A stretch of DNA of 64,000 bases from Allobosea caraganae (GTDB lineage: Bacteria > Pseudomonadota > Alphaproteobacteria > Rhizobiales > Beijerinckiaceae). The stretch lies in NCBI RefSeq assembly GCF_003351345.1, contig NZ_QQTO01000021.1:248001-312000 (forward strand), given 5' to 3'. The translations under genes and the position numbers were made by a program. Of this stretch, positions 24,249 to 45,155 are shown piece by piece (the stretch's first letter is position 1; every line of letters starts with the position of its first letter). The notes beneath the pieces were generated by a model. The model was not told the DNA's origin. It saw only the letters and a list, made by a program, of their open reading frames with translations, and made no database searches.

Positions 24249-24366
24249 CAGCGTTTCCCCCGGCCGAGACGGCGCCGCGGCGCGTGTTGACGGGGGCGGG
24301 CTTCTCTGGAAGAAGCGACGCTCCCGGAAAGGCGGACCTTTGTCGCCATCAGCTCAGGGTGGCCTC

Positions 24367-28375: not shown

Positions 28376-28926
28376 GTGAACTCGGAGCCGATCTCGCGCA
28401 GGAGCGGCGCGGTGCGGTCCTTGTCCGACAGGCGGGCGTCCTCGGCGGAAATCGGCCAGGCCACGCCGATATCGGGATCGTCCCAGCGCACGCCGGCATC
28501 GTGGTCGCGGCTATAGTAGTCGGTGACCTTGTAGATCACCTCGACATCCTCGACGAGCGTGCAGAAGCCGTGCAGGAAGCCGGTCGGAACCCAGAGCTGG
28601 CGCCAGTTCTCGGCGGAGAGCTCGACGGCGACATGCCGGCCATAGGTCGGCGATCCCACGCGGATATCGACGGCGACATCGAGGATCGCGCCCTTCGTCA
28701 CGCGGATCAGTTTGCCCTGCGCCCTCGGCTCTTTCTGGTAGTGCAGGCCGCGGATCGTGCCGCGGGCGGCCGAGGCGGAGTGGTTGTCCTGGACGAAGCG
28801 CACTGGCCCGGCCGCCTCCTCGAAGCGGTCGGCCCGGAATGCCTCGGAAAAGAAGCCGCGGGCATCGCCGATTCGCGTCGGCTCGATCAGCAGGGGGCCC
28901 TCGATGGGCAGCGTCTCGATCTTCAT
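28363..28926 (-). CDS. rmlC: dTDP-4-dehydrorhamnose 3,5-epimerase
   Basis: Third enzyme of dTDP-L-rhamnose synthesis, a cytosolic cupin dimer. The 187-residue length is typical. Motifs: GDARGFFSEAF, QDNHSASARGTIRGLHYQ-type core (GTIRGLHYQ with the catalytic His), WVPTGFLHGFCTL and VRWDDPDIGVAWP. The start at MKIETLPIEGP gives the standard N-terminus; a longer frame is spurious. Last in the rmlB-rmlD-rmlA-rmlC operon, 16 bases after rmlA. Confidence 0.95.
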   Translation of the reverse strand: MKIETLPIEGPLLIEPTRIGDARGFFSEAFRADRFEEAAGPVRFVQDNHSASAARGTIRGLHYQKEPRAQGKLIRVTKGAILDVAVDIRVGSPTYGRHVAVELSAENWRQLWVPTGFLHGFCTLVEDVEVIYKVTDYYSRDHDAGVRWDDPDIGVAWPISAEDARLSDKDRTAPLLREIGSEFTYRG

Positions 28927-28942
28927 GGCCGATCTCTCACCC

Positions 28943-29824
28943 TTACCGGTGCCAGTGCTGCTCGACGAGGAGCCGCTCCAGATATTGCCCATAGGGGCTC
29001 TTGCCCAGCTCGAGCGCCAGTGCCTTCAACTGGGTATCGTCGATGAAGCCGTTCTGCCAGGCGATTTCCTCCGGGCAGCAGATGCGCATGCCCTGGCGCT
29101 TCTCGATGGTGCGCACGAAGTTGGCGGCGTCGGTCAGCGAATCCGGCGTGCCGGTGTCGAGCCAGGCATAGCCGCGGCCCATGCGCTGCACATGCAGGTC
29201 GCCGCGTTCCAGATAGGCGCGGTTGACGTCGGTGATCTCGTACTCGCCACGCGCCGAAGGCTTGACCGCCTTGGCGATCGAGACGACATCGGAATCGTAG
29301 AAGTAAAGCCCGGTCACCGCCCAGTTGGATTTCGGGTTGGCGGGCTTCTCCTCGATCGACAGCGCCCTGCCGTCCTTGTCGAACTCGACGACGCCGTAAC
29401 GCTCCGGATCCGGCACGTGATAGGCGAAGACGGTCGCGCCGCTGCTGCGGTTCGAGGCGCTCTCGGCGAGATCAGACAGGCCGGCGCCGTAGAAGATGTT
29501 GTCGCCGAGCACGAGCGCAGCCGGGTTTCCGGCAACGAAATCCTCGCCGATGACGAAGGCCTGCGCCAGCCCGTTCGGAACGGCCTGCTCGGCATAGGAG
29601 AACTCGACGCCCCAGCGCTTGCCGTCGCCGAGCAGGCGGCGGAACAGCGGCAGGTCGTGCGGGGTCGAGATGATCAGGATCTCGCGGATGCCGGCGAGCA
29701 TCAGCACCGAGAGCGGATAGTAGATCATCGGCTTGTCATAGACCGGCACGAGCTGCTTCGAGACGGCGAGCGTGATCGGGTGCAGGCGGGTGCCGCTGCC
29801 GCCGGCGAGGATGATGCCCTTCAT
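28943..29824 (-). CDS. rmlA: Glucose-1-phosphate thymidylyltransferase
   Basis: First enzyme of dTDP-L-rhamnose synthesis: dTTP plus glucose-1-phosphate gives dTDP-glucose. 293 residues. The nucleotide-binding start is [18 protein letters not shown], followed by [27 protein letters not shown] (metal Asp) and [20 protein letters not shown]. The ATG overlaps the rmlD stop by four bases (ATGA), which fixes the start and shows translational coupling. Confidence 0.96.
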
Positions 29825-30726
29825 GTCCGCGTAGCCTTCGTTTCCTTGATGATCTCGTCCATGCAGCGCCCGAGCGCATCGCGCCAATCGGGCATCGCCA
29901 GGCCGTAAACCTGCTTGAGCTTGTCGCCGGACAGCCGCGAATTGGCCGGTCGGCTGGCCGGCGTCGGGTAATCGGCCGTGGTGATGGGCCTGACGCGGGC
30001 ATGCGGCAAGCCGCGTCCGGCGGCCTGGGCGAAAATCTCCTCGGCGAAGCCGGCCCAACTGGTCTCGCCCGCGCCTGCCAAGTGGAAGACGCCGCGCATT
30101 GCAGCCTCCTGCGGCTTGTCGCGCAGGCGCTGGGCGACGCCGAGCACGATATCGGCGATATCGGGCGCATAGCTCGGGCAGCCCTGCTGGTCGGCGACGA
30201 CCGAGAGTTCGTCGCGGGTCTCGGCCAGCCGCAGCATGGTGCGCAGGAAATTCTTGCCGTGCGCGGCATAGACCCAGGCGGTGCGCAGGATGACGTGATC
30301 CGGGTTCGCGGCTGCCACGGTCTCTTCGCCGGCGAGCTTGCTGCGGCCATAGGCACTGATCGGCCCGACCGGATCGTCTTCCAGATAGGGCGCTGTCTTG
30401 GTGCCGTCGAAGACGTAGTCGGTGGAGATCTGGATGATCGCCGCGCCCGCCGCGCGAGCGGCCGCGGCGACTGCGCCGGCGCCGGCGCCGTTCACCGCCA
30501 TGGCCAGCTCAGGCTCGCTCTCGGCCTGGTCGACGGCGGTGTAGGCGGCTGCGTTGACGACGATATCGGGCGCGAGCGCGCGGATGGCGGCAGAGGCGGC
30601 CCGAGCATCGGCGAGATCGAGTTCGGGCCGGCCGATCGCGACGAGCGCAATTCCGGGGATGGCTGCCGCGCGAGCGCGCAGCGCCGTGACGACCTGGCCG
30701 TTCGTGCCGGTGACGACGATCTTCAT
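29821..30726 (-). CDS. rmlD: dTDP-4-dehydrorhamnose reductase
   Basis: Last enzyme of dTDP-L-rhamnose synthesis, an NAD(P)H-dependent short-chain reductase, 301 residues. Rossmann motif VTGTNGQVV at the N-terminus, [23 protein letters not shown] and the catalytic YGRSKLAGE. The gene begins four bases after the rmlB stop and overlaps rmlA, so the operon order is rmlB-rmlD-rmlA-rmlC. Confidence 0.96.
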
Positions 30727-30730
30727 CGTG

Positions 30731-31810
30731 TCAGCCAGCCTGCTTCAGCAAGCCGAGCCGTTCGCCCGCATAGACCTTGTCGCGTAGCGGGCGCCACCAC
30801 CATTCGTTGTCGAGATACCAGCTCACCGTCTTCTCGATGCCGGTCTCGAAGGTCTCCTCGGCCCGCCAGCCGAGCTCGGTCTCGAGCTTGGTCGCGTCGA
30901 TCGCATAGCGCTGATCGTGGCCGGGGCGGTCGGTGACGTAGGTGATCAGCTCCTCGTGCGGCTTGGCGCCTGGGCGCAGCCGGTCGAGGATGCGGCAGAT
31001 GGTCTGGACCACGTCGATGTTGCGGCGCTCGTTGCGGCCGCCGACATTGTACTTCTCGCCGACGCGGCCTTCCGTGGCGATGACGTCGAGCGCTCGCGCG
31101 TGATCCTCGACGAAGAGCCAGTCGCGGATGTTGTCGCCCTTGCCGTAGACCGGCAGCGGCTTGCCGTGGAGCGCGTTCAGGATGACGAGCGGGATCAGCT
31201 TTTCGGGGAAATGGTAGGGGCCGTAATTGTTCGAGCAGTTCGAGATCAGGCCCGGGAAGCCATAGGTCCGCGTCCAGGCGGTGACGAGGTGGTCCGAGGC
31301 CGCCTTTGAGGCGGAATAGGGCGAGCTCGGATCATAGGCCGTGGCCTCGGTGAACAAGCCGTTCTCGCCGAGCGAGCCGTAGACCTCGTCGGTGGAGACG
31401 TGCAGGAAACGGAAGGCGTCGCGCCGCTCGCCCGGCAGCTTGTCCCAATAGCCGCGGGCGGCCTGCAGCATGCTGAACGTGCCGACGATGTTGGTCTCGA
31501 TGAAAGCGCCGGCGCCGACGATCGACCGGTCCACGTGGCTCTCTGCGGCGAGATGGACGATCTGGTCGGGCTGGAAGTGCTGAATCTGCGCCGAGACGCT
31601 GTCGCCGTCGCAAATATCGACCTGCGCGAACTGATAGCGGGGCGAGTTCCCGATATCGCGCAGCGAGGCGGGATTGCCGGCATAGGTCAGCTTGTCGAGG
31701 TTGAGGACGTCATGACCGGCGCCGACGAGGTGCCGGCACAAAGCCGAGCCGATGAACCCGCATCCGCCTGTAACCATTATCCGCCGCAACGCCATACCCC
31801 TTTTAATCAT
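30731..31810 (-). CDS. rmlB: dTDP-glucose 4,6-dehydratase
   Basis: Second enzyme of dTDP-L-rhamnose synthesis, an NAD-dependent extended SDR of 359 residues. NAD motif [24 protein letters not shown], catalytic [11 protein letters not shown] and [22 protein letters not shown] six bases before the ATG supports the chosen start; in-frame ATGs at codons 6 and 12 are alternatives. First gene of the rml operon. Confidence 0.96.
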
Positions 31811-32150: not shown

Positions 32151-34016
32151 TCAAATCTCGAGTCCGCGCTTGCGCAGCGCCGAAACCAGCATCTCTGCGG
32201 CCTGTTCGGGCGTCTGCTGGTCGGTATGCAGGTGCAGGTCCGGATTCAGCGGCTGCTCATAAGCCGCTCCCATGCCGGTGAAGCGCGGCATGCCGCCTTG
32301 CCGGGCGCGGGCGTAGAAGCCCTTCGGGTCGCGCTGCTGGCAGACCTCCAGAGGGGCATCGACGAAGACCTCGAGGAACCTGTCGGGCCCGATCACCTCG
32401 CGAGCCTCCTGCCGCTGTTCGCGGAACGGCGAGATCAGCGAGACGATGACGACGAGGCCGGCATCGGCCATCAGCGCGGCGACATGCGCGACGCGCCGCA
32501 TGTTCTCGACGCGGTCGGCATCGGAGAAGCCGAGATCGGCGTTCAGGCCGGAGCGGAGGTTGTCGCCGTCGAGCACGGTCGCGTGGCGCCCGAGCGCGTG
32601 CAGGCGCCGGTCCAGCAGATCGGCGACCGTGCTCTTGCCGGCCCCGGACAGCCCGGTGAGCCACACCACCGCCGGACGCTGCCCCATGCGCTTGGAGCGA
32701 TCCTCCGGGGTGACCTGCATCGCCTGCCACGGCGTGTCGCCGCTGCGCTTCTCGACCGAGAGGACGATGCCGGCCGCGACCGTCTGCGATGTCATGCGAT
32801 CGACCAGGATGAAGCTGCCCAGCGCATGCGAGCCGCTGAAGGGCAGGGCCGGCAGCGGCTTCGCCAGGGTAAGTCGGCCCACCGCGATATCATTGGTCCC
32901 GATCTCCTCGTCGGTCGAGGCGATCGTCAGGTCCTGGAGGTCGAGCCGGCCCTCGATGCGCGAAACGGTCGCGTTCGTCTCGCCCTTGCCGAGCTGGAAG
33001 GAATAACTGGCGCCGGGTCTGAGCGGCTCGTTCCCCAGCCAGACGAAGCGCACCCGCAGCTGCGTCGCCTGGGCGATCTCGCCGTCGCCGGATACCAGGA
33101 CGGCGCCCCGGCCGAGATCCCGCTCGGGAACCAGTTCCACGGCGACGGCCTCTCTGGCACCAGCGCGTTCGACGGCTTCGCCCGCAGACCAGAGGCGGGC
33201 GATCGTGACGTCGAGCCTGGCCTCCGTCTGCATCGCCTGGCCGACGGCAATCTCGCCGGCTGCGATCTCGCCGAAGGAGACCCGTCCGCCATGCGGCAGC
33301 CGGCCGGTGAGGGCGACCGGCAGGATCGCCGTGCCGCTGCTCGAAGCGGGCGGCTCGAAGGTTTCGAGCACGTCGAGCAGGGTTGGCCCCTCGTACCAGT
33401 CGAGGGCGGCACTGTGCTTGACGACATTGTCGCCGCTGCGGGCCGAGAGCGGAATCGCTGCGACGACCTTCAGCCCGAGGCTCGCCGCGAAGGCCTTCAG
33501 TTCGCCGGCGATCTCGTCGAAGGGCTCGCGGCGCCAGTCGACCAGGTCCATCTTGTTGATCGCCAGGACGACATGGCGCACGCCGAACAGAGCGGCGATC
33601 GCCATGTGGCGGCGCGTCTGCACCCTGACGCCGTCGGCGGCGGAGACGAGCACGTTGGCGAGCTGCGTCTGCGAAGCCGCCGCCGCCTGGTTGCGGGTAT
33701 ACTGCTCGTGGCCCGGAGCATCGGCGATCAGGAAGGCGCGCTTGGCGGTGGTGAAGTAGCGATAGGCGACGTCGATGGTGATGCCCTGCTCGCGCTCCGC
33801 CTTGAGGCCGTCGACCAGATAGGAGAAATCGAGCGTGCCGCCGCTCGCCCGCTCGGCTTCGAGGAGATGATCCTCGAAGACCGCGCCGGATTCGTAGAGC
33901 AGGCGGCCGATCAGCGTGCTCTTGCCGTCATCGACCGAGCCGCAGGTCATGATGCGAAGCCGCGGCAGCCGCAGCGGTTCGGGCAGCGTTTGCGCTGCGT
34001 GCGTTGCGTTCGCCAT
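32151..34016 (-). CDS. cysNC: Bifunctional sulfate adenylyltransferase subunit 1 / adenylylsulfate kinase
   Basis: NodQ-type fusion, 621 residues. The N-terminal EF-Tu-like GTPase (CysN) has G1 GSVDDGKST at residues 26-34, DAPGHEQYTRN and NKMDLVDW. The C-terminal APS kinase (CysC) has P-loop GLSGAGKST at residues 455-463, VLDGDNLRSGLN and FVDAPLEVCQQRDPKG. With CysD it turns sulfate and ATP into APS, then PAPS. The ATG shares one base with the cysD stop (TGATG). It sits inside the polysaccharide locus and no APS/PAPS reductase gene is near. This favours PAPS supply for sulfation, as with rhizobial NodPQ, over cysteine synthesis; that is inference. Confidence 0.95.
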   Translation of the reverse strand: MANATHAAQTLPEPLRLPRLRIMTCGSVDDGKSTLIGRLLYESGAVFEDHLLEAERASGGTLDFSYLVDGLKAEREQGITIDVAYRYFTTAKRAFLIADAPGHEQYTRNQAAAASQTQLANVLVSAADGVRVQTRRHMAIAALFGVRHVVLAINKMDLVDWRREPFDEIAGELKAFAASLGLKVVAAIPLSARSGDNVVKHSAALDWYEGPTLLDVLETFEPPASSSGTAILPVALTGRLPHGGRVSFGEIAAGEIAVGQAMQTEARLDVTIARLWSAGEAVERAGAREAVAVELVPERDLGRGAVLVSGDGEIAQATQLRVRFVWLGNEPLRPGASYSFQLGKGETNATVSRIEGRLDLQDLTIASTDEEIGTNDIAVGRLTLAKPLPALPFSGSHALGSFILVDRMTSQTVAAGIVLSVEKRSGDTPWQAMQVTPEDRSKRMGQRPAVVWLTGLSGAGKSTVADLLDRRLHALGRHATVLDGDNLRSGLNADLGFSDADRVENMRRVAHVAALMADAGLVVIVSLISPFREQRQEAREVIGPDRFLEVFVDAPLEVCQQRDPKGFYARARQGGMPRFTGMGAAYEQPLNPDLHLHTDQQTPEQAAEMLVSALRKRGLEI

Positions 34017-34915
34017 CAGAAATACCCCTCGCGCTTCTTGTCCTCCATCGACGAGCCGACATGGTCGATGATGCGACCAACGCGTTCGGAGGTCTTGGTT
34101 GCGAGGAGTTCCAGGATGATGTCCTCGACGCTGGTGGCGGGCGCTTCGATCGCGGCGGACAGGGGATAGCAGCCAAGCGTGCGAAAGCGCACCAGTGCGG
34201 TCTCGACCTGCTCGCCGGGGAGCAGCTGGAAGCGCTCGTCGTCGACGACGATGAACTGGCCGTTGCGGCGGACGACGGGGCGCTCCTTGGCGAAGTAGAG
34301 CGGCACGACGGGAAGCGCCTGCGCGAGGATGTAGCGCCAGATGTCGAGCTCGGTCCAGTTGGACAGCGGGAAGCAGCGCATGGTCGCGCCGGGCTGCAGC
34401 CGCGTGTTGTAGAGGCCGAAGAATTCCGGGCGCTGGCTGCGCGGATCCCAGACATGGCCGGGCTCGCGCAGCGAGAACACGCGCTCCTTGGCGCGCGAGC
34501 GCTCCTCGTCGCGCCGCGCCCCACCGATCGCGACATCGAAGCCATGCGCATCGATCGCCTGGCGCAGCGGCACCGTCTTCATCGCGAACGTATAGGTCGA
34601 GGCGTCGAAATCGAAGGGGTTGATGCCCTCGGCCAGCGCCTTGTCGTTGGTGGCGGTGAGTAGCTCGACCCCGTCGCGCGCGACCAGCTCGTCGCGGAAC
34701 GCGATCATGTCCTTGAACTTATAGGTCGTGTCGACATGCAGCATCGGCATCGGCAATTTCGTCGGAGCGAACGCCTTCTTGGCGAGATGGTAGAGGACCG
34801 AGGAATCCTTGCCGATCGAGTAGAGCAGGACCGGCCGGGCAAAGCAGGCGCGGGCTTCACGAAGGATCGCGATCGCTTCGGCCTCGAGCGCGCGGAGGTG
34901 GGAATCCATTGCCAT
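34016..34915 (-). CDS. cysD: Sulfate adenylyltransferase subunit 2
   Basis: ATP sulfurylase catalytic subunit (PP-loop ATPase), about 299 residues from MAMDSHLR, the family's normal length; ATGs at codon 1 or 3 are equally possible and a longer frame is spurious. PP-loop [49 protein letters not shown] and [13 protein letters not shown] are all present. Coupled to cysN-cysC by a TGATG junction. It starts the sulfate-activation operon, divergent from the DUF2793 gene. Confidence 0.95.
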
Positions 34916-35163
34916 CTTTCTGCTGGAAACGCTGTTGCCGGCTAGGCGGCGCTGTTGCGCGGATGTCTCTGCGGCGGCGAAGGCGAAGTCAAGCGCCAGC
35001 CGGCCGGCGTCCGCAAGAACGAGCGGTTTGGCGCGAGCTTCCCGACCGCCCCCGAGACGGGTCAAGGCGGCAATCCTGCAAGCTCGGCCGAATGGTAATA
35101 GGAATATAATCTTGACATTCCCGTCTGTTTATGCCACGCATCGAGGCCTGCACAGGAGGTCTC

Positions 35164-36393
35164 ATGGCCCATACGTCCCGTCTCGAACTGCCTTTGCTGG
35201 CCGCATCGCAGGCCCAGAAACACGTCACTCACAACGAGGCGCTGCTGGCGCTCGATGCGCTCACGCATCTTGCGGTGACCGATCGTCGCGCCACGCCGCC
35301 AGCCGCACCAGTCGAGGGCAGCCGCCATCTCGTGGAAGCAGGTGCAAGCGGCGCCTTCGCGGGGCAGGCCGGCAAGATCGCCGTCTTCGAGGATAATGGC
35401 TGGCGATTCCTCACGCCGCGCCAGGGATGGCTGGCCTGGGTGGCGCAGGATCAGGCGCCGCTGGTCCATGACGGCTCGGGCTGGACGGAGCTGAAAGTTC
35501 GCTCCTCCGATCGGCTCGGCATCGGCGCGACGGCTGACGCGACGAACCGGCTGGCGGTGGCGAGCCCGGCGGCGCTGTTCACCCATGCGGGGAGCGACAG
35601 CCGCGTCACCATCAACAAGGCCGCGGCCGGCAATACGGCGAGCCTGCTGTTCCAGACCGGCTATTCCGGGCGCGCGGAGATCGGCCTTGCGGGAAGCGAC
35701 AATGTCTCGGTGAAGGTGAGCAGCGACGGCGCCACCTGGCGCCAGCCGCTGACTGTGAAACGCGACACCGGCTTCGTCGGTATCGGCACGCCGGATCCCG
35801 GCGCGCCCCTGACCGTCGACAGCAGCACCAATTCGCTGCCGGCAGGCAATGGCAGCCTGCTGATCCAGGGCGACGCCAACAAGGAGCGGCTCGATATCCG
35901 CAGCGCCGGCGTGGCGCCTGGCGCAGGCATCCAAGGCTTCGGTGCGCGCGGCACGCTCGCGTCGCCGCAGGCGCCGCTCAGCGGCGACCGGTTGATGGCG
36001 CTGCTTGGCTCAGGTTGGGACGGTACCCAGTTCGTCATTCCGCTTCCCGCCCAGATCGACATGGTGGCTGACGGCGACTGGTCCTCTTCAGCCAATGGCA
36101 CCGCGGTTATCATCCGTACCACGCCGCCCGGACAGACAGTGGCTGCACGTGCGGATCGGATGAAAATTACGGGAGACGGCCGGGTCGGCGTGGGGACCGC
36201 GACGCCTCAGGCGCTTCTCGATGTCGCCGGCACTATGCGGGTGGGGCAGTACGGCAAGGCAGCTTTGCCCAGTGCGTCGGGAGTTGGCGCGGGCGGCCTC
36301 GTTTACGTTTCCGACGAAGTTGGCGGCGGCGTACTCGCCTTCTCCGATGGGGTCGCATGGAGGCGGGTCACAGATCGAGCTATCGTGAGTTGA
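35164..36393 (+). CDS. DUF2793 protein, phage/GTA spike- or tail-fibre-like
   Basis: About 409 residues, no signal peptide. The N-terminal 110 residues form the DUF2793 module (LPLLAASQAQKHVTHNEALLAL, then GQAGKIAVFEDNGWRFLTPRQGWLAWV). The rest is beta-rich and carries two tail-fibre style motifs, VGIGTPDPGAPLTVDSS and VGVGTATPQALLDVAGTM. DUF2793 occurs in phage tail proteins and, as I recall, in the head spikes of the Rhodobacter gene transfer agent that bind capsule. AGGAGG five bases before the ATG is a strong start. It stands alone between cysD (divergent) and the capsule operon (convergent), with no other phage gene. Function unknown; binding of the local polysaccharide is a guess. Confidence 0.8.
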   Translation: MAHTSRLELPLLAASQAQKHVTHNEALLALDALTHLAVTDRRATPPAAPVEGSRHLVEAGASGAFAGQAGKIAVFEDNGWRFLTPRQGWLAWVAQDQAPLVHDGSGWTELKVRSSDRLGIGATADATNRLAVASPAALFTHAGSDSRVTINKAAAGNTASLLFQTGYSGRAEIGLAGSDNVSVKVSSDGATWRQPLTVKRDTGFVGIGTPDPGAPLTVDSSTNSLPAGNGSLLIQGDANKERLDIRSAGVAPGAGIQGFGARGTLASPQAPLSGDRLMALLGSGWDGTQFVIPLPAQIDMVADGDWSSSANGTAVIIRTTPPGQTVAARADRMKITGDGRVGVGTATPQALLDVAGTMRVGQYGKAALPSASGVGAGGLVYVSDEVGGGVLAFSDGVAWRRVTDRAIVS

Positions 36394-36409: not shown

Positions 36410-36997
36410 TTACTGATCTGGATAGTCGCCAAAAAACTCCTTCTGGAGCTCAAGAGGCCTCTTTTTTCTTTCCTTGATTCGCTTGGCAGGCGTTCCTGCG
36501 TAAATGCTCCACGGAGCTAAGGATTTGTTAACGAGAGAAAGCGCGCCGACGGTTGCACCGGTGTCGATTGTCACGCCGGGCAGAACGACCGTTCCGGCGC
36601 CGACGACCACATGCTGACCAATGACGATTTGACCGGACGTTACTTTCCGTAGCTCCGGACGGATAAGTGGTCCAGTCATCGCTTCGCCTGAGAAGTCATC
36701 TGTGGATGATACCAAGCGTACTCCTTGGGAGACTCCAGCAAAATTCTTGATTCTTGCTCCTCCTGAGCCCAGAATCGAGACGCCTGCCGCTATGTGAACG
36801 TAATCCTCAATGTATATTTCTCCAGATGCAGATAAAATGCAGAAGGCATCTATTCTTACATTGCTCCCTAGAAAAATCTTATCCGAATTCGCTATAATGC
36901 ATGTTTTGTGAATTTTTACGTTATTCCCGATTTGTGCCCAATTAAAATTTGATATTTCACCATCGCTTAGGTATTCGGCATTATAGAATGTTTGCAT
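36410..36997 (-). CDS. Hexapeptide-repeat acyltransferase (CatB/LbetaH type)
   Basis: Left-handed beta-helix O- or N-acetyltransferase, about 195 residues. Hexad repeats run through VKIHKTCIIANSDKIFLG, IYIEDYVHIAAGVSILG, IVIGQHVVVGAGTVVLPGV and the final NKSLAPWSIYAGTPAKRIKERKK, the family's hallmark. It transfers an acyl group from acyl-CoA to a sugar in the cytosol. I prefer the internal ATG (AGGT nine bases upstream, 11 bases after the preceding stop); an ATG 30 bases earlier would overlap the upstream gene. Last gene of the sulfotransferase-to-Wzt operon. Markedly AT-richer than the genes to its left. Confidence 0.85.
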   Translation of the reverse strand: MQTFYNAEYLSDGEISNFNWAQIGNNVKIHKTCIIANSDKIFLGSNVRIDAFCILSASGEIYIEDYVHIAAGVSILGSGGARIKNFAGVSQGVRLVSSTDDFSGEAMTGPLIRPELRKVTSGQIVIGQHVVVGAGTVVLPGVTIDTGATVGALSLVNKSLAPWSIYAGTPAKRIKERKKRPLELQKEFFGDYPDQ

Positions 36998-37008
36998 TGC
37001 GCTGCGAC

Positions 37009-37926
37009 CTATCTTTGATAGTGCCATTCTTTAAGGAGCGGAACAATAACGCTGTTCGCGTCATTGTTCATCGTGTCGGATAGTCCATTGACATAGTCCG
37101 GATCATATATCTTTGATCTATCTAATTCTGCAGTTCTTAGGTAATGAATCACCCGAAAATCCTCTCTTTTCTTATGATTCAGTTTTTGATGGGTGGAATC
37201 ATTTGACATATTATATTCTGCTCCCAACGTAATAATCTTAAATTTTTCTCGCTGTGACACTAACGTTAGGCCAATCTGACAGCGCATGAAACTCTCTGTG
37301 ACACTTGTTAAGCGCTCGTGCACTTCATCGATTTTGCGCCCCAGTATTTCAAGCGCTAGAGGGTTCATTGCGACAAAGCCAAGATTAAAATAGGGTGGAA
37401 TTTTTGGTAATAGTCCCTCAGCGTCCATCGAATATTGATGTAGTTCTTTTGGCCATTCGATATTAAATATTCTAAATATTTCTGGCCAATATCGATCAGA
37501 AGTCGATTCCGGGAGTATGGTGCCTTTTGTTTCTGGTGGAGAATGAGCGTTGTGCCCAGCTATTGCTGGAAATGGGATATCAATTTGACGAATCACATCG
37601 TCTATGTCGCGCACAAGCACCGTGTCCGCATCGGATTGAATAACAACTTTAGCTTCAGTTTTATCATTGTAGCGCCAATTTGCAGTTCCGTACATGTCGT
37701 ACTTATTAAAAATTTGTTCTGGAACTGCTTTCCACTCGACGTTGTAGTCGTTACTCCACGAATTTTGCTTTATAGCTTCGCCAATTTTAAAATTTTCTCC
37801 AACATATACGTTTATTTTGGCCTCGGTGTAGATTCCACCAAGCCTACGCAGGCAGAAATTAAAAAATTCAACTTGCCCAAAAAAACCTAGTGTTGGCGCG
37901 ATCGGGATTCTGAACTCGATATTCAT
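37009..37926 (-). CDS. Probable GT-A-type glycosyltransferase, AT-rich
   Basis: Not assigned to a named family with certainty. 305 residues with a nucleotide-sugar transferase look: VVIQSDADTVLVRDIDDV holds a DxD-type metal motif, and PPYFNLGFVAMNPLALEIL resembles the acceptor side of GT8-like enzymes. It overlaps the DegT gene stop by four bases (ATGA), so it is in the capsule operon. Very AT-rich for this genome (for instance 18 of 60 bases are G/C at 37441-37500), a sign of recent transfer. Probably adds a sugar to the exported polymer. Confidence 0.65.
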   Translation of the reverse strand: MNIEFRIPIAPTLGFFGQVEFFNFCLRRLGGIYTEAKINVYVGENFKIGEAIKQNSWSNDYNVEWKAVPEQIFNKYDMYGTANWRYNDKTEAKVVIQSDADTVLVRDIDDVIRQIDIPFPAIAGHNAHSPPETKGTILPESTSDRYWPEIFRIFNIEWPKELHQYSMDAEGLLPKIPPYFNLGFVAMNPLALEILGRKIDEVHERLTSVTESFMRCQIGLTLVSQREKFKIITLGAEYNMSNDSTHQKLNHKKREDFRVIHYLRTAELDRSKIYDPDYVNGLSDTMNNDANSVIVPLLKEWHYQR

Positions 37927-39035
37927 TCCGTGTTGCCTTCAATCTGTTCAATAAGTGAGGCTAGCGCTTCTACGATCTCCTGTCGTTTGGCGAGATCGTT
38001 AGTTGCTCTCACCGGAAGCGCGCACATCCTGTCTGCGAGCGACTCGGAGACAGGGCATGCATGGGCCGTGTCGATCTCGGGCCAATTCGATAGGCTGGGG
38101 CGGTAGTAGCGGCGAAGCTCTATCCCAGCCATCGCTGCGCGCTGTTCCAGCTGATCTGCGGCGGATTTGCTTGACAGAAGGTATGGGAAGCACTGCCAAG
38201 GCGAGGAGCTGGCCGAGCCGGGTAATATTGTCGGCAGCCGAGCGAGATAGGCTGCTGCAAACTCCTGTCTGTAGCGCACGGCCTCGTCGATGATGTCCAG
38301 CTGAGCCAGGCCGATTGCAGCCTGAAATTCGGAAAGCTTTCCGTTGAAGCCCCAGTTCACTTTGCTCTGATACCCCCGGCCGAGGCCGAAATTGAGCGCG
38401 CTCTGTATATCCTGCAGACGTTCGGCATGGCCGAATATGAGCCCGCCTTCCCCTACCGCAAATGCCTTTGTGGCGTGTAGGGAAAATACCTCGAATAGGT
38501 TGAGATCCGTACAGCGTGGCTTGCGTGGCACGCCAAGGCCTGCAGCGTTGTCTATGACAACCGCGATGCCCCGGGCCAAGCAGAACGCTATCTCCTCGTC
38601 GAACCCATGATTGATGCCAAAGGGGGATACCAGCATGACCGCCGCAGGCAGAGAAGCCTCACAGTGCCTCGCAATTATTTCGACAGAGAGAGCCCAGGTC
38701 TTCTCATCTACGTCAGCTATGACGGGTCTCAAATTCGCAGCTCGTACGGCGCCAGACGATGCCGGGAATGTGAATGCCGGGACGAGGACATCGCCCTTCA
38801 CATTCGCGGCGATTAGCGCTGCAGAAAGCCCCGCGGTCGCGTTAGCTGCCGCTACGCAGCATTCGTTGGCGTCTCCGTACTTGGCGAGAATCTGTGCTTC
38901 GAACCGCCGAGAAACGGGGCCAAAATTGGAAAAAGTCCCGCTGTCATAGATTTGCTGGAAAAGCTCAAGGTAGGCGGAGACCGGTGGCAGCCTAGGCTCG
39001 ATGAAGCGATGCTTGAAGGTTGGGGTATGGCGCAT
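37923..39035 (-). CDS. DegT/DnrJ/EryC1/StrS-family sugar aminotransferase
   Basis: PLP-dependent aminotransferase of 370 residues acting on keto-sugar nucleotides. The PLP lysine is in SLHATKAFAVGEGG, the ring-stacking and aspartate region is VVIDNAAGLG, and the N-terminal FSNFGPVSRRFEAQI is typical. It begins four bases after the wzt stop and overlaps the next gene (ATGA). With the hexapeptide acyltransferase two genes later it would build an acylated amino sugar. The 4-keto substrate could come from RmlB, but the 3,4-ketoisomerase expected for 3-amino sugars is not seen here. Confidence 0.88.
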   Translation of the reverse strand: MRHTPTFKHRFIEPRLPPVSAYLELFQQIYDSGTFSNFGPVSRRFEAQILAKYGDANECCVAAANATAGLSAALIAANVKGDVLVPAFTFPASSGAVRAANLRPVIADVDEKTWALSVEIIARHCEASLPAAVMLVSPFGINHGFDEEIAFCLARGIAVVIDNAAGLGVPRKPRCTDLNLFEVFSLHATKAFAVGEGGLIFGHAERLQDIQSALNFGLGRGYQSKVNWGFNGKLSEFQAAIGLAQLDIIDEAVRYRQEFAAAYLARLPTILPGSASSSPWQCFPYLLSSKSAADQLEQRAAMAGIELRRYYRPSLSNWPEIDTAHACPVSESLADRMCALPVRATNDLAKRQEIVEALASLIEQIEGNTE

Positions 39036-39039
39036 TGTT

Positions 39040-40419
39040 TTAAATTTCCGCGTGCTGATCCACGCTGACGGGGCCGGCTTTCAGATTGATGGTGCTGGAG
39101 CAGAGGAGATCTGCGCCGAACTGATGCACGCGAAACACAAAGCCGTCGACGATGCGATGAGCATACATGACCTCGCCGTCTTCGTACTTACCTACTCCGG
39201 CATTACAATAATACAATCCGGGTGACAGAAGATTTAGAAAGGGGAACGTAACGATTAATTTCTCACCTTTGTTGAATTTCTTTCCTTTTCCTATTTCTCC
39301 TGAGCTTTGTCCAAATAGATGGAGGCCGGAAGTGTCGCGTATGGCCATGCCGAAACCCGCATTCTCGGCGCTTTCTAAGAATTCAACATCATACTGATAT
39401 CTATATGGCCTTCCGAAACTGATTGAATTAACGGCGTTTCCTGATTCATCCAATATTCTTATGTTTTTTATTTGCGCTCCATTTATCGTATATTCGACAA
39501 TGGACTCGCTTCTAAGATTTTCATCAAATGAGTCGTAGTTATGCGATGAGGTTTTATCCTCTTCTTGGCGGCTCTCGTCTTTTTGCCAAAATGAAGCGGT
39601 GGTTTCACCTTTGGGCGATGTGGTAGCTCCTATGGCGAGCCCTGATTTGATTTCTTGTCGATATCTTTTCTGGTCTTCCAAAGAGGCGGAGATAAGCCGC
39701 TGATATTGGTTGACTACCGCCTTCGGCTCTCCCTCCAGCAGCTTCTCTCCCGCATCCAGCAGGATCGCGCGATCGCAGAGCTGCACGATCGTCTGCGCTC
39801 CGTGGGAGACGAAGAGGATGGTGCCGCCGCGCTCCTTGATCGCTTCGATGCGGGCGTAGCATTTGCGCTGGAAAGCCTCGTCCCCAACCGCAAGTGCTTC
39901 GTCGACGATCAGGATATCGGGCTCGACGGCCGTTGCGACAGCGAAGGCGAGCCGGACATACATGCCGCTCGAATAGGTCTTCACCGGTCGTTCGATGAAC
40001 TCACCGATACCGGCGAACTGCGCGATCTGGTCGAAACGAGCGTCCATTTCCTCGCGGCTGAAGCCGAGGATAGCGCCGTTCATATAGACATTCTCGCGCC
40101 CGGTGAATTCGCCGGAAAAGCCGGCTCCGAGTTCGAGCAAGGCGGCGATACGCCCGCGGACTTTCACGGACCCTTGCGTCGGCTGGAGTGTGCCGCAGAT
40201 GATCTGTAGCAGGGTGGATTTGCCGCAGCCGTTCCGGCCGATAATGCCGATGGTTTCGCCGCGCTTGACCTCCAGCGAGACATCGTGCAGCGCAGCGAAC
40301 TCCTTGAACGGCCTGATGCGGCCGAGCGTCGCCATCTGCACGAGCCGGTGCTCCGGCTTGTTGTAGATGCGGTAAACCTTGGAGAGGTTGCCGACCGAGA
40401 TCGCGACTTCAGAGGACAT
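39040..40419 (-). CDS. wzt: Polysaccharide ABC exporter ATPase (Wzt) with C-terminal recognition domain
   Basis: ATPase of a Wzm/Wzt exporter, 459 residues from the ATG with AGGG eight bases upstream. The ATPase part (residues 1-240) has Walker A GRNGCGKST at 61-69, signature TYSSGMYVRLAFA near 148-160, Walker B ILIVDEALAVGD and the switch His in LFVSHG. The tail (about 250-459) is a beta-sandwich like the Wzt carbohydrate-binding domain, which reads the chain end before export. Composition drops sharply between the parts (68% G/C in 40141-40200, 33% in 39481-39540), which suggests that the tail was exchanged. The ATG overlaps the wzm stop by 11 bases. Confidence 0.92.
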   Translation of the reverse strand: MSSEVAISVGNLSKVYRIYNKPEHRLVQMATLGRIRPFKEFAALHDVSLEVKRGETIGIIGRNGCGKSTLLQIICGTLQPTQGSVKVRGRIAALLELGAGFSGEFTGRENVYMNGAILGFSREEMDARFDQIAQFAGIGEFIERPVKTYSSGMYVRLAFAVATAVEPDILIVDEALAVGDEAFQRKCYARIEAIKERGGTILFVSHGAQTIVQLCDRAILLDAGEKLLEGEPKAVVNQYQRLISASLEDQKRYRQEIKSGLAIGATTSPKGETTASFWQKDESRQEEDKTSSHNYDSFDENLRSESIVEYTINGAQIKNIRILDESGNAVNSISFGRPYRYQYDVEFLESAENAGFGMAIRDTSGLHLFGQSSGEIGKGKKFNKGEKLIVTFPFLNLLSPGLYYCNAGVGKYEDGEVMYAHRIVDGFVFRVHQFGADLLCSSTINLKAGPVSVDQHAEI

Positions 40420-41188
40420 CGGCGAAGCCCTTGCGGGTTTTCTGGAAAAAAGCGTAGCCAAGCGCGGCGACGATCAGGCCGCCGACGATTCCAAGCAGCC
40501 ACATAACGAGGTTGGGCAGGCGGCCGAAGATAACCGCCTCGCGCACCGTTTCGATGCTGAAGGCAAGGGGGTTGTTGGCTGCAAACGGGCGAATCCATTC
40601 CGGCAAATTGGAGGAAGGGTAAAAGATCGGACTCAGAAACATCAGCGCTGTGACGATAGATGGCATGAGCTGGCTGACATCGCGAACGTAGACACCTAAG
40701 GCAGCGAGAAACCACGTGACGCCCAGCGTGAACAGGCAAAGCGGGAGGACAAGCAGGGGCAATAGCAACACCACGGTGTGAAAGCCGGAGCCAAGCGTGA
40801 TCTGGAATACGAGCAGGACGACGATCGCGATTGCCGCTTGGAAAAGCGCGGAGCCCATTGCAACAATCGGTAGAACCGCCAGAGGAAATACGACTTTCTT
40901 CACCAGATTGGGTTGCGCGGTCACCAAATTCGGTGCGCGACTTACCATTTCGGCGAAAAGGTTGAAGGGTGTAAGCCCCGCGAAAACAATCAGGCCGAAC
41001 TCGGTCGGGCTTGTCTGCCCCTGACCCCAACGGGATTGAAACACCACCGCGAAGAAGAAGGTAAAGACGGCGAGCATGAATAGTGGTGTGGCGAGGCTCC
41101 AGATTAGGCCTAGCATCGAGCCGCGGTATCGAGATGCGACCTCTCGCACCGTGAGTTGGCTGATAAGGGAGAGGGGTATCTTATTCAC
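40409..41188 (-). CDS. wzm: Polysaccharide ABC exporter permease (Wzm)
   Basis: Integral membrane subunit of the ABC-2 type polysaccharide exporter, 259 residues. About six hydrophobic helices and the family start REVASRYRGSMLGLIWSLATPL. Also PTEFGLIVFAGLTPFNLFAE, LVKKVVFPLAVLPI and PIFYPSSNLPEWIRPFAANNPL. It forms the channel with Wzt, whose gene it overlaps by 11 bases, and sends lipid-linked polymer across the inner membrane. Confidence 0.93.
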   Translation of the reverse strand: MNKIPLSLISQLTVREVASRYRGSMLGLIWSLATPLFMLAVFTFFFAVVFQSRWGQGQTSPTEFGLIVFAGLTPFNLFAEMVSRAPNLVTAQPNLVKKVVFPLAVLPIVAMGSALFQAAIAIVVLLVFQITLGSGFHTVVLLLPLLVLPLCLFTLGVTWFLAALGVYVRDVSQLMPSIVTALMFLSPIFYPSSNLPEWIRPFAANNPLAFSIETVREAVIFGRLPNLVMWLLGIVGGLIVAALGYAFFQKTRKGFADVL

Positions 41189-41247: not shown

Positions 41248-42180
41248 CTAAATTCCATCCCCTTTTGTTAAGAAATCTTTGGTTAATTTTAACCCATCGT
41301 AGAGATTTACCTTCGGCGCCCAACCTGTTTCCCTGCTGAGTTTATTTATGTCAAGTATATTCCTTTCAACGTCAAATGATCTTGAGGGCTTGTAAATGAC
41401 ATTTGGGGGTGTGCCGACAATGGTCGATACGATCGCCAAAAGCTCGTTTAAGGACGTTCCGATGCCGCTTCCGAGATTGAATATTCTTTCGCGCCCGCTG
41501 TAGGCCAAGCTTGTCATCAAGCCTGAAACCGCGTCCGAAATGTAGATGTAATCGCGTATGACCGAGCCATCGCCCCAAATCTCTATTGTTTCGCCGCGCA
41601 GCGCCCGCGCCAAGAATACGGTTACGGCCCCCTGGGCGCTGGATGGCCTCTGGAATCGTCCATAAGGATTTGAGAGCCTATAGACTAAATATGGCAATTG
41701 ATGGAGGTGCCAAAAGAGTTCGAGATATTTTTCGATAGTAAGCTTGCAAATTCCATAGGATGAAAGCGGATGGTTTGGATGGGTTTCAGTGATCGGGATG
41801 GACTGAGGTTGGCCGTATACCGTTCCTCCTGACGAAACGAATACGATGCGGCGTACGCCTGCCTCTTTGGATTTCTGCAGGACGCCAAGCGTCGCGACAA
41901 CGTTACTAATGACGTCATGACGAGGATTGTCGTTCGACGTCTTTGGCAGCGTGCTACTTGCCAGATGAAAGACATATTCCTGACCTTCCAAGGCTCGCTC
42001 GATATCGGAATCGACGGCGAAATCGCCATTGACCCATTCCAATCGCGGATTGTTCCGAAGGAACTCAGGGGGCTGCACGCCCGCACGCTCCAGGATTCGG
42101 ACACAGTGCCCGGCGGCGAGTAGCGCCTCCGACAGGTTTAGACCGATAAATCCCGCGCCTCCTATGACAAGTGTTTTCAT
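41248..42180 (-). CDS. NAD-dependent epimerase/dehydratase (GalE-like)
   Basis: Extended SDR of 310 residues acting on a nucleotide sugar. NAD motif VIGGAGFIGLNLSEAL, VFVSSGGTVYG and catalytic YGICKLTIE; substrate region YRLSNPYGRFQRP. The GalE/WbpP-like branch (4-epimerase of UDP-hexose or UDP-HexNAc) fits best, but 310 residues do not tell the substrate. The ATG overlaps the stop of the large glycosyltransferase by four bases (ATGA). AT-richer than the rml and cys genes. Confidence 0.83.
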   Translation of the reverse strand: MKTLVIGGAGFIGLNLSEALLAAGHCVRILERAGVQPPEFLRNNPRLEWVNGDFAVDSDIERALEGQEYVFHLASSTLPKTSNDNPRHDVISNVVATLGVLQKSKEAGVRRIVFVSSGGTVYGQPQSIPITETHPNHPLSSYGICKLTIEKYLELFWHLHQLPYLVYRLSNPYGRFQRPSSAQGAVTVFLARALRGETIEIWGDGSVIRDYIYISDAVSGLMTSLAYSGRERIFNLGSGIGTSLNELLAIVSTIVGTPPNVIYKPSRSFDVERNILDINKLSRETGWAPKVNLYDGLKLTKDFLTKGDGI

Positions 42181-45155
42181 GCTCTCGGATTCCTGCCTGC
42201 AAGGAAGGATTGAACGGCTTCCTCGACATGGCGTTCGACCCTCTCCTCGAAGGCGGTCATTGTGAAGAATTTTTCGAAGACAGCGATCGCCGCCTTGCTC
42301 ATGTCGCGACGCTGCGACGGTGACATGTTGTGAACCCGCTGAATGACGAGGGCGATTTCCTCGGGGCTATTGTGCGACAAGACGAAACCGGAAACGCCAT
42401 GTTCCAGATAGGCGCTGGTACCTGTGGTCGCGCTGACGATCAGAATTTTACCCGACGCCAAGGCGTCGAGAGACACATAGGGCAGCGTGTCGTCCCTGGA
42501 TGGAACGATAACGGCATCCGAGTCTGCGAGCAGCGCGGCGTATTCCCGAAAGGGCACTTCTCCGATGAAGGAAACAGTATCCGGTGCGGAGGATTTGACT
42601 ATTCTTGCGTATTCCGGATCAAGCACTCGGCCTACGACGGACAAATGGCAGGAAGCTGCCGCCGCCGCGGGCAGGTACGACATCCCGAAAATCGCCAGGT
42701 CCTGCCCCTTGCGTGGCTCGAAAGAGCCGAACAGGCTGAGGCGGAGGTTCTTCGACGCCGGCCTTGTCTGTTCACGAAGCGAGGTGGGTTGAGATCGTTC
42801 GACACCGTACTCTAAAATTCTGCTCGGTATGGATAGCGCCTTCAGGGCATTCGAACCGCGCACGCTCCCGGTCACTACAAAAGGAAGCGATTTCGCGTCC
42901 GTAATGAGTTGGGATTTTGAGGCAGCCAAATCCAGGATCAGCTCACTCTCATGGGAGTAGAGCATGGTCGGTATCAGTCCTGCCAGTTGGGCGAGGGGCG
43001 GAGCGGACAGAATCGTATTGCCGATCGCAATATCGAACTGCTGATAAAGGTCTTTGATCGTATCGTGTCTGCGCATGACAAGCGCATCTGTGATTACAGT
43101 AACTCCTAACTCGGTAAGCTCTTGCCGTAGCGGTCCATCCGAAGGAGTTGTTACGACGACGAACCAGTTTTGGCGCGTTAGCAGCCTCGCGATCTCAAGG
43201 ACAACACGGGGCGCGCCGCTTGAAGTAAGATCATGCGAAAATATCACGGCGGACTTGCCGTCCGCCTTGTAAGCTCTCTTCTGTGGGGGGTGAATTGTAA
43301 ACTCTTCCTGAGAATCGACGAAAAGGATCGATCTCATGGCCTCAGGGAAGTATGGATCACGAGCCGTTTCCAGCGGCCAAACTTTGAGCAGCTCCAGGTC
43401 GTGTTTTTCGATAACCTTTTCTTTTGCCTCTTTCTTCGATGCTCCTATCGATAGGTGCCCAATATGCCTAAGAACGGAGTAGGGTGTGTAAATGCAACTT
43501 TTTCCAGCTTGCCGAACCTTGAAGCTGATATCAATGTCCGAATGTGCGATCGGGAATCGCTGTTCGTCAAAACCGCCGATTTCTGCATATAGGCTTGATC
43601 TGACGACCATGCAGGCTCCGCAGGCAATGGAGACTTCGCGCACACTTTGCGCGAAGTTGAAATGTGCGCTGGTATCCGGCGGGAACATGTGAAAGGCTGT
43701 GCCGACCAGCCGCCTTACGCCGGTCACCATGCCTGCATACTGAATTTTTCCGTTCTCATAGATAAGTTTCGGAGAAACTATTCCGACATCCTTATGAACA
43801 AAAATGTCGACGAGTTCGTCCAGCCAATCGCTCCTTATGGTGCGAACGTCATCATTGTAAAAACAGAGATATGTTCCATTGGACGCTAGAGCGCCGACGT
43901 TGCATTTCCTTGAGAAGGAGAATTTTTCGTCAAATGGAACGAATATAATGTTGCCATGCGGTTCTTCGCGCAGGCGACTGATGAGTTTACTGTTAGTTAC
44001 AATAACGATCTCGTAGTTCTTATATTGTGTTTTGTCTCGGATGCTGTCGATGGAGTGCTTGATGTTGGTATAATTATCCGAAGGGATGATAATCGATACA
44101 AGTGGGAGAGACGCTCGATCTGCATCTCGAATCTCAATTCTATTCGCCGCCGGCAGGGGGGCTGCCTGTCCGGGAATGTTGCGGCGTCGCAGGGCGTCCT
44201 GCAACGCTGCGATATTCGATGATCGCGCGTAAGGCTTTCCATCTGCTGCGGCTGAGCCGGCTATGGCCCGCCACCCATAAAGGTAGCGTGCCACATGCCG
44301 CACCGAAGTGGTGTGCTCAAAGACACGTAGCGCCAGATCATAATCCTGAGAGAAATCATACTTGGAACGAAAAGCGCCAACCCGTTCCACGAGTTCTTTT
44401 CTGTAAACCGAAAAATGTCCGGTATACATGCAATTGATCATCAAGGTCGGTGAAAAATCGGGCTTCGGGAACAGTTCTACGACTTTCCCGCTCTCCGATA
44501 TTTTGAATTCGTCCGAATAAACTACGTCGACTGATGCCTCTGAACTGATAGCATCGTTTATGGTCGCCAAGCATTCCGGCATCAAGACGTCATCATGATC
44601 AATGAGACCGATGAACGGCGCGGTCGCCATCTTCAATGCGCAGTTGGTGGCGTGGGCGATCCCGGCATTTGTGTCGAGCTTGCGATACTTAATTCTGGAA
44701 TCTTGCTGACGATAGCGATCGAGGGCGGCGTCCAGCGCTTCGGACATCGACCCGTCATCGACAATGCACAACTCCCAGTGAAGGAAGGTTTGGCTTTGAA
44801 CAGAGTGTATGGCGGCTTCCAAGAGCGCGATTGGAGTTTTGTACACCGGCATCAGCAGAGAAAAGTGTGGAGGTGTATGTGCCGCCAAAGCGCTGGGAAA
44901 CTGGGGCTCGGTCTTGGTAAGCGCGACAGTCAGTTCCTTGCAAATGTGCCCATAGCGCCCTTCAATCGTTTCGAAGTTGAAGGACGCGTCATCCTGCCGG
45001 GTAAGCAGAAGATTCGCGTTATACGGTAAGGGGTTGCCATGGCCCGAGATGAGTCGGTTGATGGCAAGCCTGACGCGATAAGCGGCGGGTATTCTAGCCT
45101 CAATATAGAGTACCGCCGGCCGGAGTGTCTTCTTTAAGCTGTTTCTCATTGTCAT
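42177..45155 (-). CDS. Three-module glycosyltransferase (GT2-GT2-GT4), 992 residues
   Basis: Large cytosolic enzyme with three transferase modules in one chain. Module 1 (about 95-330) is GT2 with FSLLMPVYKTP, CIVDDGS and LIDHDDV (D186-D189). Module 2 (about 350-610) is a second GT2 with LVSIIIPSDNY, CFYNDDVR and a GGFDEQRFPIAHSDIDISFK acceptor loop. Module 3 (about 640-985) is GT4-like with SGAPRVVLEIARLL, LFGSFEPRKGQDLAI and SRDDTLPYVSLDALASG. Such proteins can build a repeat or cap it. Start ambiguity is two codons (MTMRN). It leads into the epimerase gene by ATGA overlap. Each module's sugar is unknown. Confidence 0.88.
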   Translation of the reverse strand: MTMRNSLKKTLRPAVLYIEARIPAAYRVRLAINRLISGHGNPLPYNANLLLTRQDDASFNFETIEGRYGHICKELTVALTKTEPQFPSALAAHTPPHFSLLMPVYKTPIALLEAAIHSVQSQTFLHWELCIVDDGSMSEALDAALDRYRQQDSRIKYRKLDTNAGIAHATNCALKMATAPFIGLIDHDDVLMPECLATINDAISSEASVDVVYSDEFKISESGKVVELFPKPDFSPTLMINCMYTGHFSVYRKELVERVGAFRSKYDFSQDYDLALRVFEHTTSVRHVARYLYGWRAIAGSAAADGKPYARSSNIAALQDALRRRNIPGQAAPLPAANRIEIRDADRASLPLVSIIIPSDNYTNIKHSIDSIRDKTQYKNYEIVIVTNSKLISRLREEPHGNIIFVPFDEKFSFSRKCNVGALASNGTYLCFYNDDVRTIRSDWLDELVDIFVHKDVGIVSPKLIYENGKIQYAGMVTGVRRLVGTAFHMFPPDTSAHFNFAQSVREVSIACGACMVVRSSLYAEIGGFDEQRFPIAHSDIDISFKVRQAGKSCIYTPYSVLRHIGHLSIGASKKEAKEKVIEKHDLELLKVWPLETARDPYFPEAMRSILFVDSQEEFTIHPPQKRAYKADGKSAVIFSHDLTSSGAPRVVLEIARLLTRQNWFVVVTTPSDGPLRQELTELGVTVITDALVMRRHDTIKDLYQQFDIAIGNTILSAPPLAQLAGLIPTMLYSHESELILDLAASKSQLITDAKSLPFVVTGSVRGSNALKALSIPSRILEYGVERSQPTSLREQTRPASKNLRLSLFGSFEPRKGQDLAIFGMSYLPAAAAASCHLSVVGRVLDPEYARIVKSSAPDTVSFIGEVPFREYAALLADSDAVIVPSRDDTLPYVSLDALASGKILIVSATTGTSAYLEHGVSGFVLSHNSPEEIALVIQRVHNMSPSQRRDMSKAAIAVFEKFFTMTAFEERVERHVEEAVQSFLAGRNPRA

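Follow-up and report, generated by a model that had tools for sequence, protein, structure and literature searches.

A tail-fibre gene, very probably of the gene transfer agent, within a polysaccharide locus of Allobosea caraganae

We analysed a 64,000-nucleotide stretch of the Allobosea caraganae genome (here called the window, to which all unprefixed positions refer) and found that the gene at positions 35164–36393 in all likelihood encodes the tail fibre of the strain's own gene transfer agent (GTA), a fibre that would grip a surface glycan, probably the polymer produced by the surrounding locus. By sequence and fold, this reading is based on four observations: an N-terminus of the megatron-binding rod and knob type, a GTA cluster with an open megatron gene in the same genome, the co-occurrence of fibre and GTA genes among related genomes, and a promoter box present at two sites of the genome.

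Results

The gene and its product

The gene is an ATG-start open reading frame of 409 codons preceded by an AGGAGG motif. The following features were identified in and directly before it.

35099–35116, forward strand: predicted GTA-type promoter box TAGGAATATAATCTTGAC, located by pattern and matrix; the second of the genome's two copies precedes the GTA cluster
35154–35159, forward strand: ribosome-binding site AGGAGG, read from the sequence
35164–36393, forward strand: GTA tail-fibre gene (DUF2793 protein, 409 aa), assigned from Pfam, PHROG, sequence and fold matches
35230–35484, forward strand: DUF2793 domain (residues 23–107), which together with the N-terminal helix is the counterpart of rod and knob in the R4C fibre
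35767–36288, forward strand: outer fibre part (residues 202–375), similar to Bdellovibrio MAT fibre tips

DUF2793 was the sole Pfam match of the protein (107 bits over residues 23–107, cut-off 27), and this gene gave the single match to PF10983 in the 6.17-Mb genome. PHROG tail-fibre families matched the protein too, in agreement with the DUF2793 head and tail-fibre motifs described in an earlier, sequence-only reading of this DNA. No signal peptide or membrane anchor was seen in the N-terminus by eye. The same reading had noted the lack of phage neighbours, and this was borne out: none of the 10 flanking proteins matched PHROG structural families (1e-5), and the 13 proteins of the genome's own GTA cluster had no match anywhere in the 64-kb window.

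The N-terminus is of tail-fibre type

The first part of the protein matched a chain of the roseophage R4C structure (PDB 8gtc, chain S) by sequence (7.3e-14) and by profile (4e-30), with a fold match of 38% identity over 92–95 aligned columns and an rmsd of 2.2–3.0. The PDB label of this chain is “Ribonuclease III”; we take it to be the R4C fibre because it has 230 residues and is present as nine chains, and from the cited passages of the R4C paper (PMC10276861). That fibre is described as composed of a rod, a knob and a foot, of which the rod binds the fibre-binding domain of the megatron (PMC10276861). The first ~110 residues of the window protein are the region matching rod and knob.

The sequence-only reading had assigned the protein as a GTA head spike, and this part of it had to be abandoned. 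We replaced “head spike” with “tail fibre” because a published survey assigns DUF2793 to the tail fibre of GTAs, counts it in 225 of 293 genomes and reports that it co-evolves with GTA genes (Kogay 2024, PMC10883770), because of the match to the R4C fibre, and because the head spikes of the Rhodobacter capsulatus GTA (RcGTA) are a different pair of proteins, Rcc01079/Rcc01080 (PMC7296036). The head fibre is described there as starting with a different, Leu-Gly peptide, which is absent from the window protein. The distinction from head spikes thus uses the published description of their N-terminus, and the solved folds that were matched are fibres. The TspA tailspike was also rejected as an identity, given a protein of 409 residues with DUF2793 as its only Pfam hit versus a ~763-residue right-handed beta-helix with a PF12218-like cap.

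The genome carries a GTA cluster

Along with the earlier reading, a search for GTA structural genes elsewhere in the genome had been proposed, and it located a cluster on a different contig (C41) from that of the fibre gene (C38). The GTA_TIM and capsid families gave one match each, ~9 kb apart. The further reading frames of this stretch were assigned by reading, yielding the series terminase, portal, capsid, g6, g8, g10, tape measure, g12–g14 and megatron, and the megatron frame is open over 1323 residues. Eleven other clusters of the genus have an identical gene content within the sequence covered. Two tandem trypsin-family protease genes (Pfam Trypsin; L062:12971–14758) lie between capsid and g6 of the strain's own cluster on the opposite strand, and both were matched by tblastn in 11/11 other genus clusters examined (L111–L121).

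Fibre and GTA genes occur together

Among 67 genomes of the genus, a strong DUF2793 match (E below 1e-20; weak matches of 1e-7 to 1e-9 in G005, G024 and G033 were left uncounted) was present in 48 of the 56 with GTA_TIM versus none of the 11 without it (Fisher p 6e-8), so that eight GTA-positive Bosea genomes had no strong match. A usable rpoB was available for 58 of the 67. On the resulting tree the GTA status changed at least four times and all nine GTA-less genomes were without the fibre; a paired test on the tree was not significant because it offered only three to four independent pairs. Across 249 genomes of the order, both genes were found in 152, GTA only in 18, DUF2793 only in 12 and neither in 67. 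DUF2793 was thus present in 152/170 GTA-positive versus 12/79 GTA-negative genomes (Fisher p 3e-31, uncorrected for kinship). With the GTA cluster and the R4C-type rod and knob, this co-occurrence sustains the earlier proposal that a GTA part is encoded beside capsule-type genes; the protein is very probably such a part.

Among the matches listed, DUF2793 was located 2.0–4.5 kb from GTA_TIM, approximately at the end of the megatron, in 66 of the 107 genomes for which both were listed. The remaining 41 showed no linkage among the matches listed; one of these (G184) has DUF2793 linked to a megatron, and since linkage rests on the matches listed, more of the 41 may be linked. No GTA-cluster proteins were found in the 48 Bosea fibre loci, covered to at most ~9 kb on each side and less at six contig ends. 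GTA_TIM was present in 13 of 14 genomes queried from among those with named fibre loci, the exception being a Mesorhizobium MAG (L129). In one Bosea genome (G004, contig 28, L066) we observed a further cluster, GTA-like or of a prophage, in which a short DUF2793 gene immediately follows the megatron; none of the 48 other Bosea fibre genes shows this order.

A promoter box common to the fibre gene and the GTA cluster

The starts of Bosea GTA clusters share the box TAGGAA-N4-RTC(C)TTGAC, and the box in the window ends 47 bases upstream of the fibre ATG. In the 6.17-Mb genome the pattern has two sites, before the fibre gene and before the GTA cluster, and the reversed pattern has none. The pattern was written after both sites had been seen; therefore, we built a matrix that excluded the strain's own sites and drew on 48 sites, representing 12 distinct strings, from other genomes. 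Forty of these 48 sites lie 13–16 kb from GTA_TIM on the same contig, six lie on another contig and two lie at distances of 32 and 68 kb. The window box scored 29.1 bits with this matrix, the next best site of the 64-kb window 17.5 and the best of 39 random loci 18.0. The fibre gene and the GTA cluster may share regulation via the predicted promoter box.

The genus has 54 copies of the box, spread over 50 genomes that comprise 49 of the 56 GTA-positive genomes and one of the 11 scored as GTA-negative. The latter (G041, L374), so scored by GTA_TIM, contains a box-led, broken GTA cluster in which portal and capsid pieces are fused and no terminase match was found; its contig ends in the tape measure, and the genome is without a fibre gene. 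Two genomes carry a second GTA-type box before a non-cluster module (G006, L371:3984–7502; G062, L372:4219–7707). According to families from the L371 copy, this module encodes a ParB_N and DNA-methylase protein, a small protein and a terminase-like protein. The box provides a sequence handle on the Bosea GTA regulon.

The exact box is absent from all 47 other Bosea fibre genes. An ATCCCCG element was found upstream of 32 of the 48 (e.g., L063, L074 and L097), and the looser variant TAGGA..CCTA was detected by scan in three Bosea fibre promoters (L092, L094 and L107). With the exact box at one and ATCCCCG at 32 of the 48 genes, we rejected the GTA box as the general control of all Bosea fibre genes; the ATCCCCG element perhaps represents a second type of control. 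Close variants of the box precede two of 100 fibre genes beyond the 48, those of YIM 77505 (L124) and Phreatobacter (L125), in a set of 100 that repeats some Bosea genomes.

The surrounding polysaccharide locus

The neighbours on both sides of the fibre gene in the window are polysaccharide, sulphate-activation and export genes. One flank runs from CysD to the UDP-glucose-type dehydrogenase and the other from the hexapeptide transferase to the glycosyltransferase.

23986–25707, forward strand: UDP-glucose/GDP-mannose dehydrogenase; reading frame as listed, true start probably internal
27434–28375, forward strand: RgpF (rhamnan synthesis) domain protein, by family match
28363–31810, reverse strand: dTDP-rhamnose genes rfbC, rfbA, rfbD and rfbB, by families; the rfb names are our reading
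32151–34016, reverse strand: CysNC-type protein (GTPase and APS kinase), by families
34016–35065, reverse strand: PAPS_reduct-domain protein (Pfam), which we read as CysD, the sulphate adenylyltransferase small subunit
36410–37027, reverse strand: hexapeptide-repeat transferase (Pfam)
37923–39035, reverse strand: DegT aminotransferase (Pfam)
39040–41188, reverse strand: Wzt (with Wzt_C domain) and Wzm, a polysaccharide ABC exporter (Pfam)
41248–45155, reverse strand: NDP-sugar epimerase and multidomain glycosyltransferase, by families

The locus had been called a capsule locus. Genes for polysaccharide synthesis and export do surround the fibre gene, but the product could equally be an O-antigen, because the ABC protein has a Wzt_C domain.

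Glycan genes near fibre genes of other genomes

A glycan-synthesis gene was among the seven nearest reading frames at 13 of 20 Bosea fibre loci, hand-picked for different site types among the 48, versus one of 20 random Bosea loci. By the same criterion, nine of 20 fibre loci of other families were positive versus none of 19 random loci; these 20, listed as unlinked, were hand-picked for different families among the 41 genomes without listed linkage, and one of 20 controls was lost as it covered a fibre locus (L336). Pooled, the random loci gave one positive in 39. The nine positive loci represent seven of the 15 families sampled, and the other 11 had no glycan gene among their seven nearest reading frames. 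One locus listed as unlinked (L292) turned out to be megatron-linked and was counted as a miss. The glycan seeds came partly from the tested sets, and with non-set-specific seeds only the counts were 7/20 versus 1/39. Pfam tallies of fibre loci versus random Bosea loci, which are independent of the seeds, agree (25 families listed), with sugar transferase, epimerase, glycosyltransferase and UDP-GlcNAc 2-epimerase leading at the fibre loci but not at the random Bosea loci.

The 48 Bosea loci are not independent, as most have common neighbours such as WcaJ, IlvD and a carbamoyltransferase. A Phreatobacter locus matched GT2, RgpF, cysD, cysNC, the fibre, an rfbB-like epimerase, rfbD, rfbA and rfbC; this set is much like that of the window, but in a different order and on a single strand. 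In Aminobacter, cysNC lies close to the fibre gene at four loci, and at one of these cysD is present too. At one Bosea site (L069) the fibre gene lies near a sarcosine-oxidase-type gene.

The outer half of the fibre

Across 18 named loci, the first 200 residues were 49–64% identical to those of the window protein and the ends differed widely. By Pfam, fibre ends included the Peptidase_S74 chaperone (L069, L086 and L125), C1q (L193) and a sub-threshold BclA_C (L169). This repertoire of ends resembles that of phage tailspikes. One end type has 34 members among 40 Bosea loci; the end type of the window protein is common to G000, G010, G045 and G062, genomes that do not group next to one another in the rpoB tree.

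The end of the window protein matched the Bdellovibrio MAT fibre tip 8oml by sequence (4e-14). A MAT tip also topped the fold search of the outer part (1.9e-9), but with TM-scores of 0.26/0.32. In the first AlphaFold model (mean pLDDT 48) only the knob was confident, and the second, from alignment A5, reached a pLDDT of 72 and a pTM of 0.39. Because these models are monomers of a likely trimer, the fold match to MAT is supportive but not proof. One Bdellovibrio MAT protein is reported to bind bacterial surface glycans (PMC10769870).

The earlier reading had also proposed looking for co-variation of the gene with capsule type. Over 40 of the 48 loci (seven genomes had no usable rpoB, and L085 was excluded because its end looks frame-shifted), the fibre and its neighbouring genes co-varied more than the species tree accounts for (partial Spearman 0.73). 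No co-variation particular to the outer half was found in these 40 loci. The N-terminal anchor co-varied as strongly as the end, so that simple linkage suffices to account for the result.

Discussion

We infer that particles are assembled with this fibre and that it binds the strain's own polymer. In rare producing cells, a GTA activator would act through the common box on both the cluster and the fibre gene; the fibre protein would trimerise, dock on the fibre-binding domain of the megatron and leave with the particle on lysis. Its outer part would then attach to a glycan on the surface of recipients, probably the polymer of the surrounding locus, although whether the glycan bound is the product of this very locus we regard as evenly balanced. 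Since the fibre gene lies within the polymer locus, fibre and polymer could be inherited, exchanged and selected together, and a matching of the particle to the local polymer is a reasonable hypothesis.

A prophage remnant, that is, a lone and functionless tail-fibre gene from a siphophage with a GTA-like baseplate, would be consistent with the DUF2793 fibres carried by phages and with the GTA- or phage-like cluster of G004, where DUF2793 directly follows the megatron. We rejected this explanation as very improbable in view of the open frame with its ribosome-binding site, the lack of phage structural matches among the ten flanking proteins, the GTA-type box upstream and a DUF2793 presence that follows the GTA in the genus and the order. 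The setting in a polysaccharide locus and the resemblance of the outer part to MAT fibre tips could instead indicate a cell-surface adhesin or lectin of the capsule locus, comparable with the Bdellovibrio fibres. Such a protein is hardly credible here, as the rod and knob that bind megatron form the N-terminus, inspection by eye showed neither a signal peptide nor an anchor, and the gene is missing from the GTA-less genomes of the genus.

The placement of a genuine GTA tail fibre may also be neutral, with capsule islands collecting insertions and no selected matching of fibre and polymer. The equal co-variation of N- and C-terminal parts with the neighbours, the Bosea site near a sarcosine-oxidase-type gene and the 11 of 20 other-family loci without glycan genes all favour this account, and it is a substantial possibility, albeit not the one we prefer. 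Against it stand the glycan genes near fibres in seven of 15 sampled families versus one of 39 random loci, the Phreatobacter fibre with much the same gene set as the window, and cysNC near the fibre in Aminobacter. Our preferred reading remains that of a GTA tail fibre that grips a surface glycan.

An extension of this reading, which we offer only tentatively and consider rather doubtful, is that the fibre gene acts as an address label moving with polysaccharide islands, so that a polymer swap by gene exchange, perhaps via the GTA itself, brings the matching fibre. If this were true, particles would continue to bring DNA to cells that share the coat, and the constant rod and knob, the varied ends and the repeated settling in glycan loci would amount to kin recognition built into gene transfer.

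GTA genomes spread over several loci, the DUF2793 tail fibre, and the position of the RcGTA head-spike genes next to capsule genes, with shared regulation, are already known. In the open literature searched, we found no description of a GTA tail-fibre gene in a polysaccharide locus. As far as that search extends, three points are new: the siting of a tail-fibre gene within a capsule-type locus, a promoter box that this genome carries only at the fibre gene and the GTA cluster, and the recurrent location of unlinked fibre genes among glycan genes in the order. They suggest that particle and coat may be kept matched. If particles reach only kin, this would be one answer to why costly, self-destructive GTA production persists. 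A receptor-binding gene in the locus of its likely receptor, behind a GTA promoter box, makes this idea directly testable, and the repeat of the pattern across families makes comparative tests possible.

Comparison with known systems

The RcGTA tail fibre is Rcc00171, which we take to be accession ADE83936.1. Like the window protein, it is a DUF2793 tail fibre of the kind that co-evolves with GTA genes (PMC10883770), and its gene is placed in an ectopic locus (PMC13420450, section 3). The RcGTA tail fibre is also reported to bind capsule, as proposed here (PMC10218006). It differs in its foot, which has been compared with a pyocin lectin domain (PMC7296036), whereas the end of the window protein compares with the MAT tip. 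In R. capsulatus, moreover, the genes described beside the capsule genes are those of the head spikes (PMC10218006). These, Rcc01079/Rcc01080, resemble the predicted product of the window gene in being receptor-binding proteins of a GTA whose genes stand next to those for the capsule, with which they are regulated together in R. capsulatus (PMC10218006), but they are other proteins, situated on head vertices, and their described N-terminal Leu-Gly peptide is absent from the window protein.

TspA (Rcc02623), the detachable RcGTA tailspike, is likewise an ectopic GTA part acting on polysaccharide; it differs as a beta-helix enzyme with residues numbered to 763, and the cited passages report it only in Rhodobacterales (PMC13420450). 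The Bdellovibrio MAT fibres (Bd1334 and Bd2439) share the outer fibre part by sequence (4e-14) and fold, but are located on the predator's surface and start with a signal peptide (PMC10769870). The R4C fibre belongs to a phage and, at 230 residues, carries a short lectin-like foot (PMC10276861); in common with the window protein it has the rod and knob, at 38% identity over 92–95 columns.
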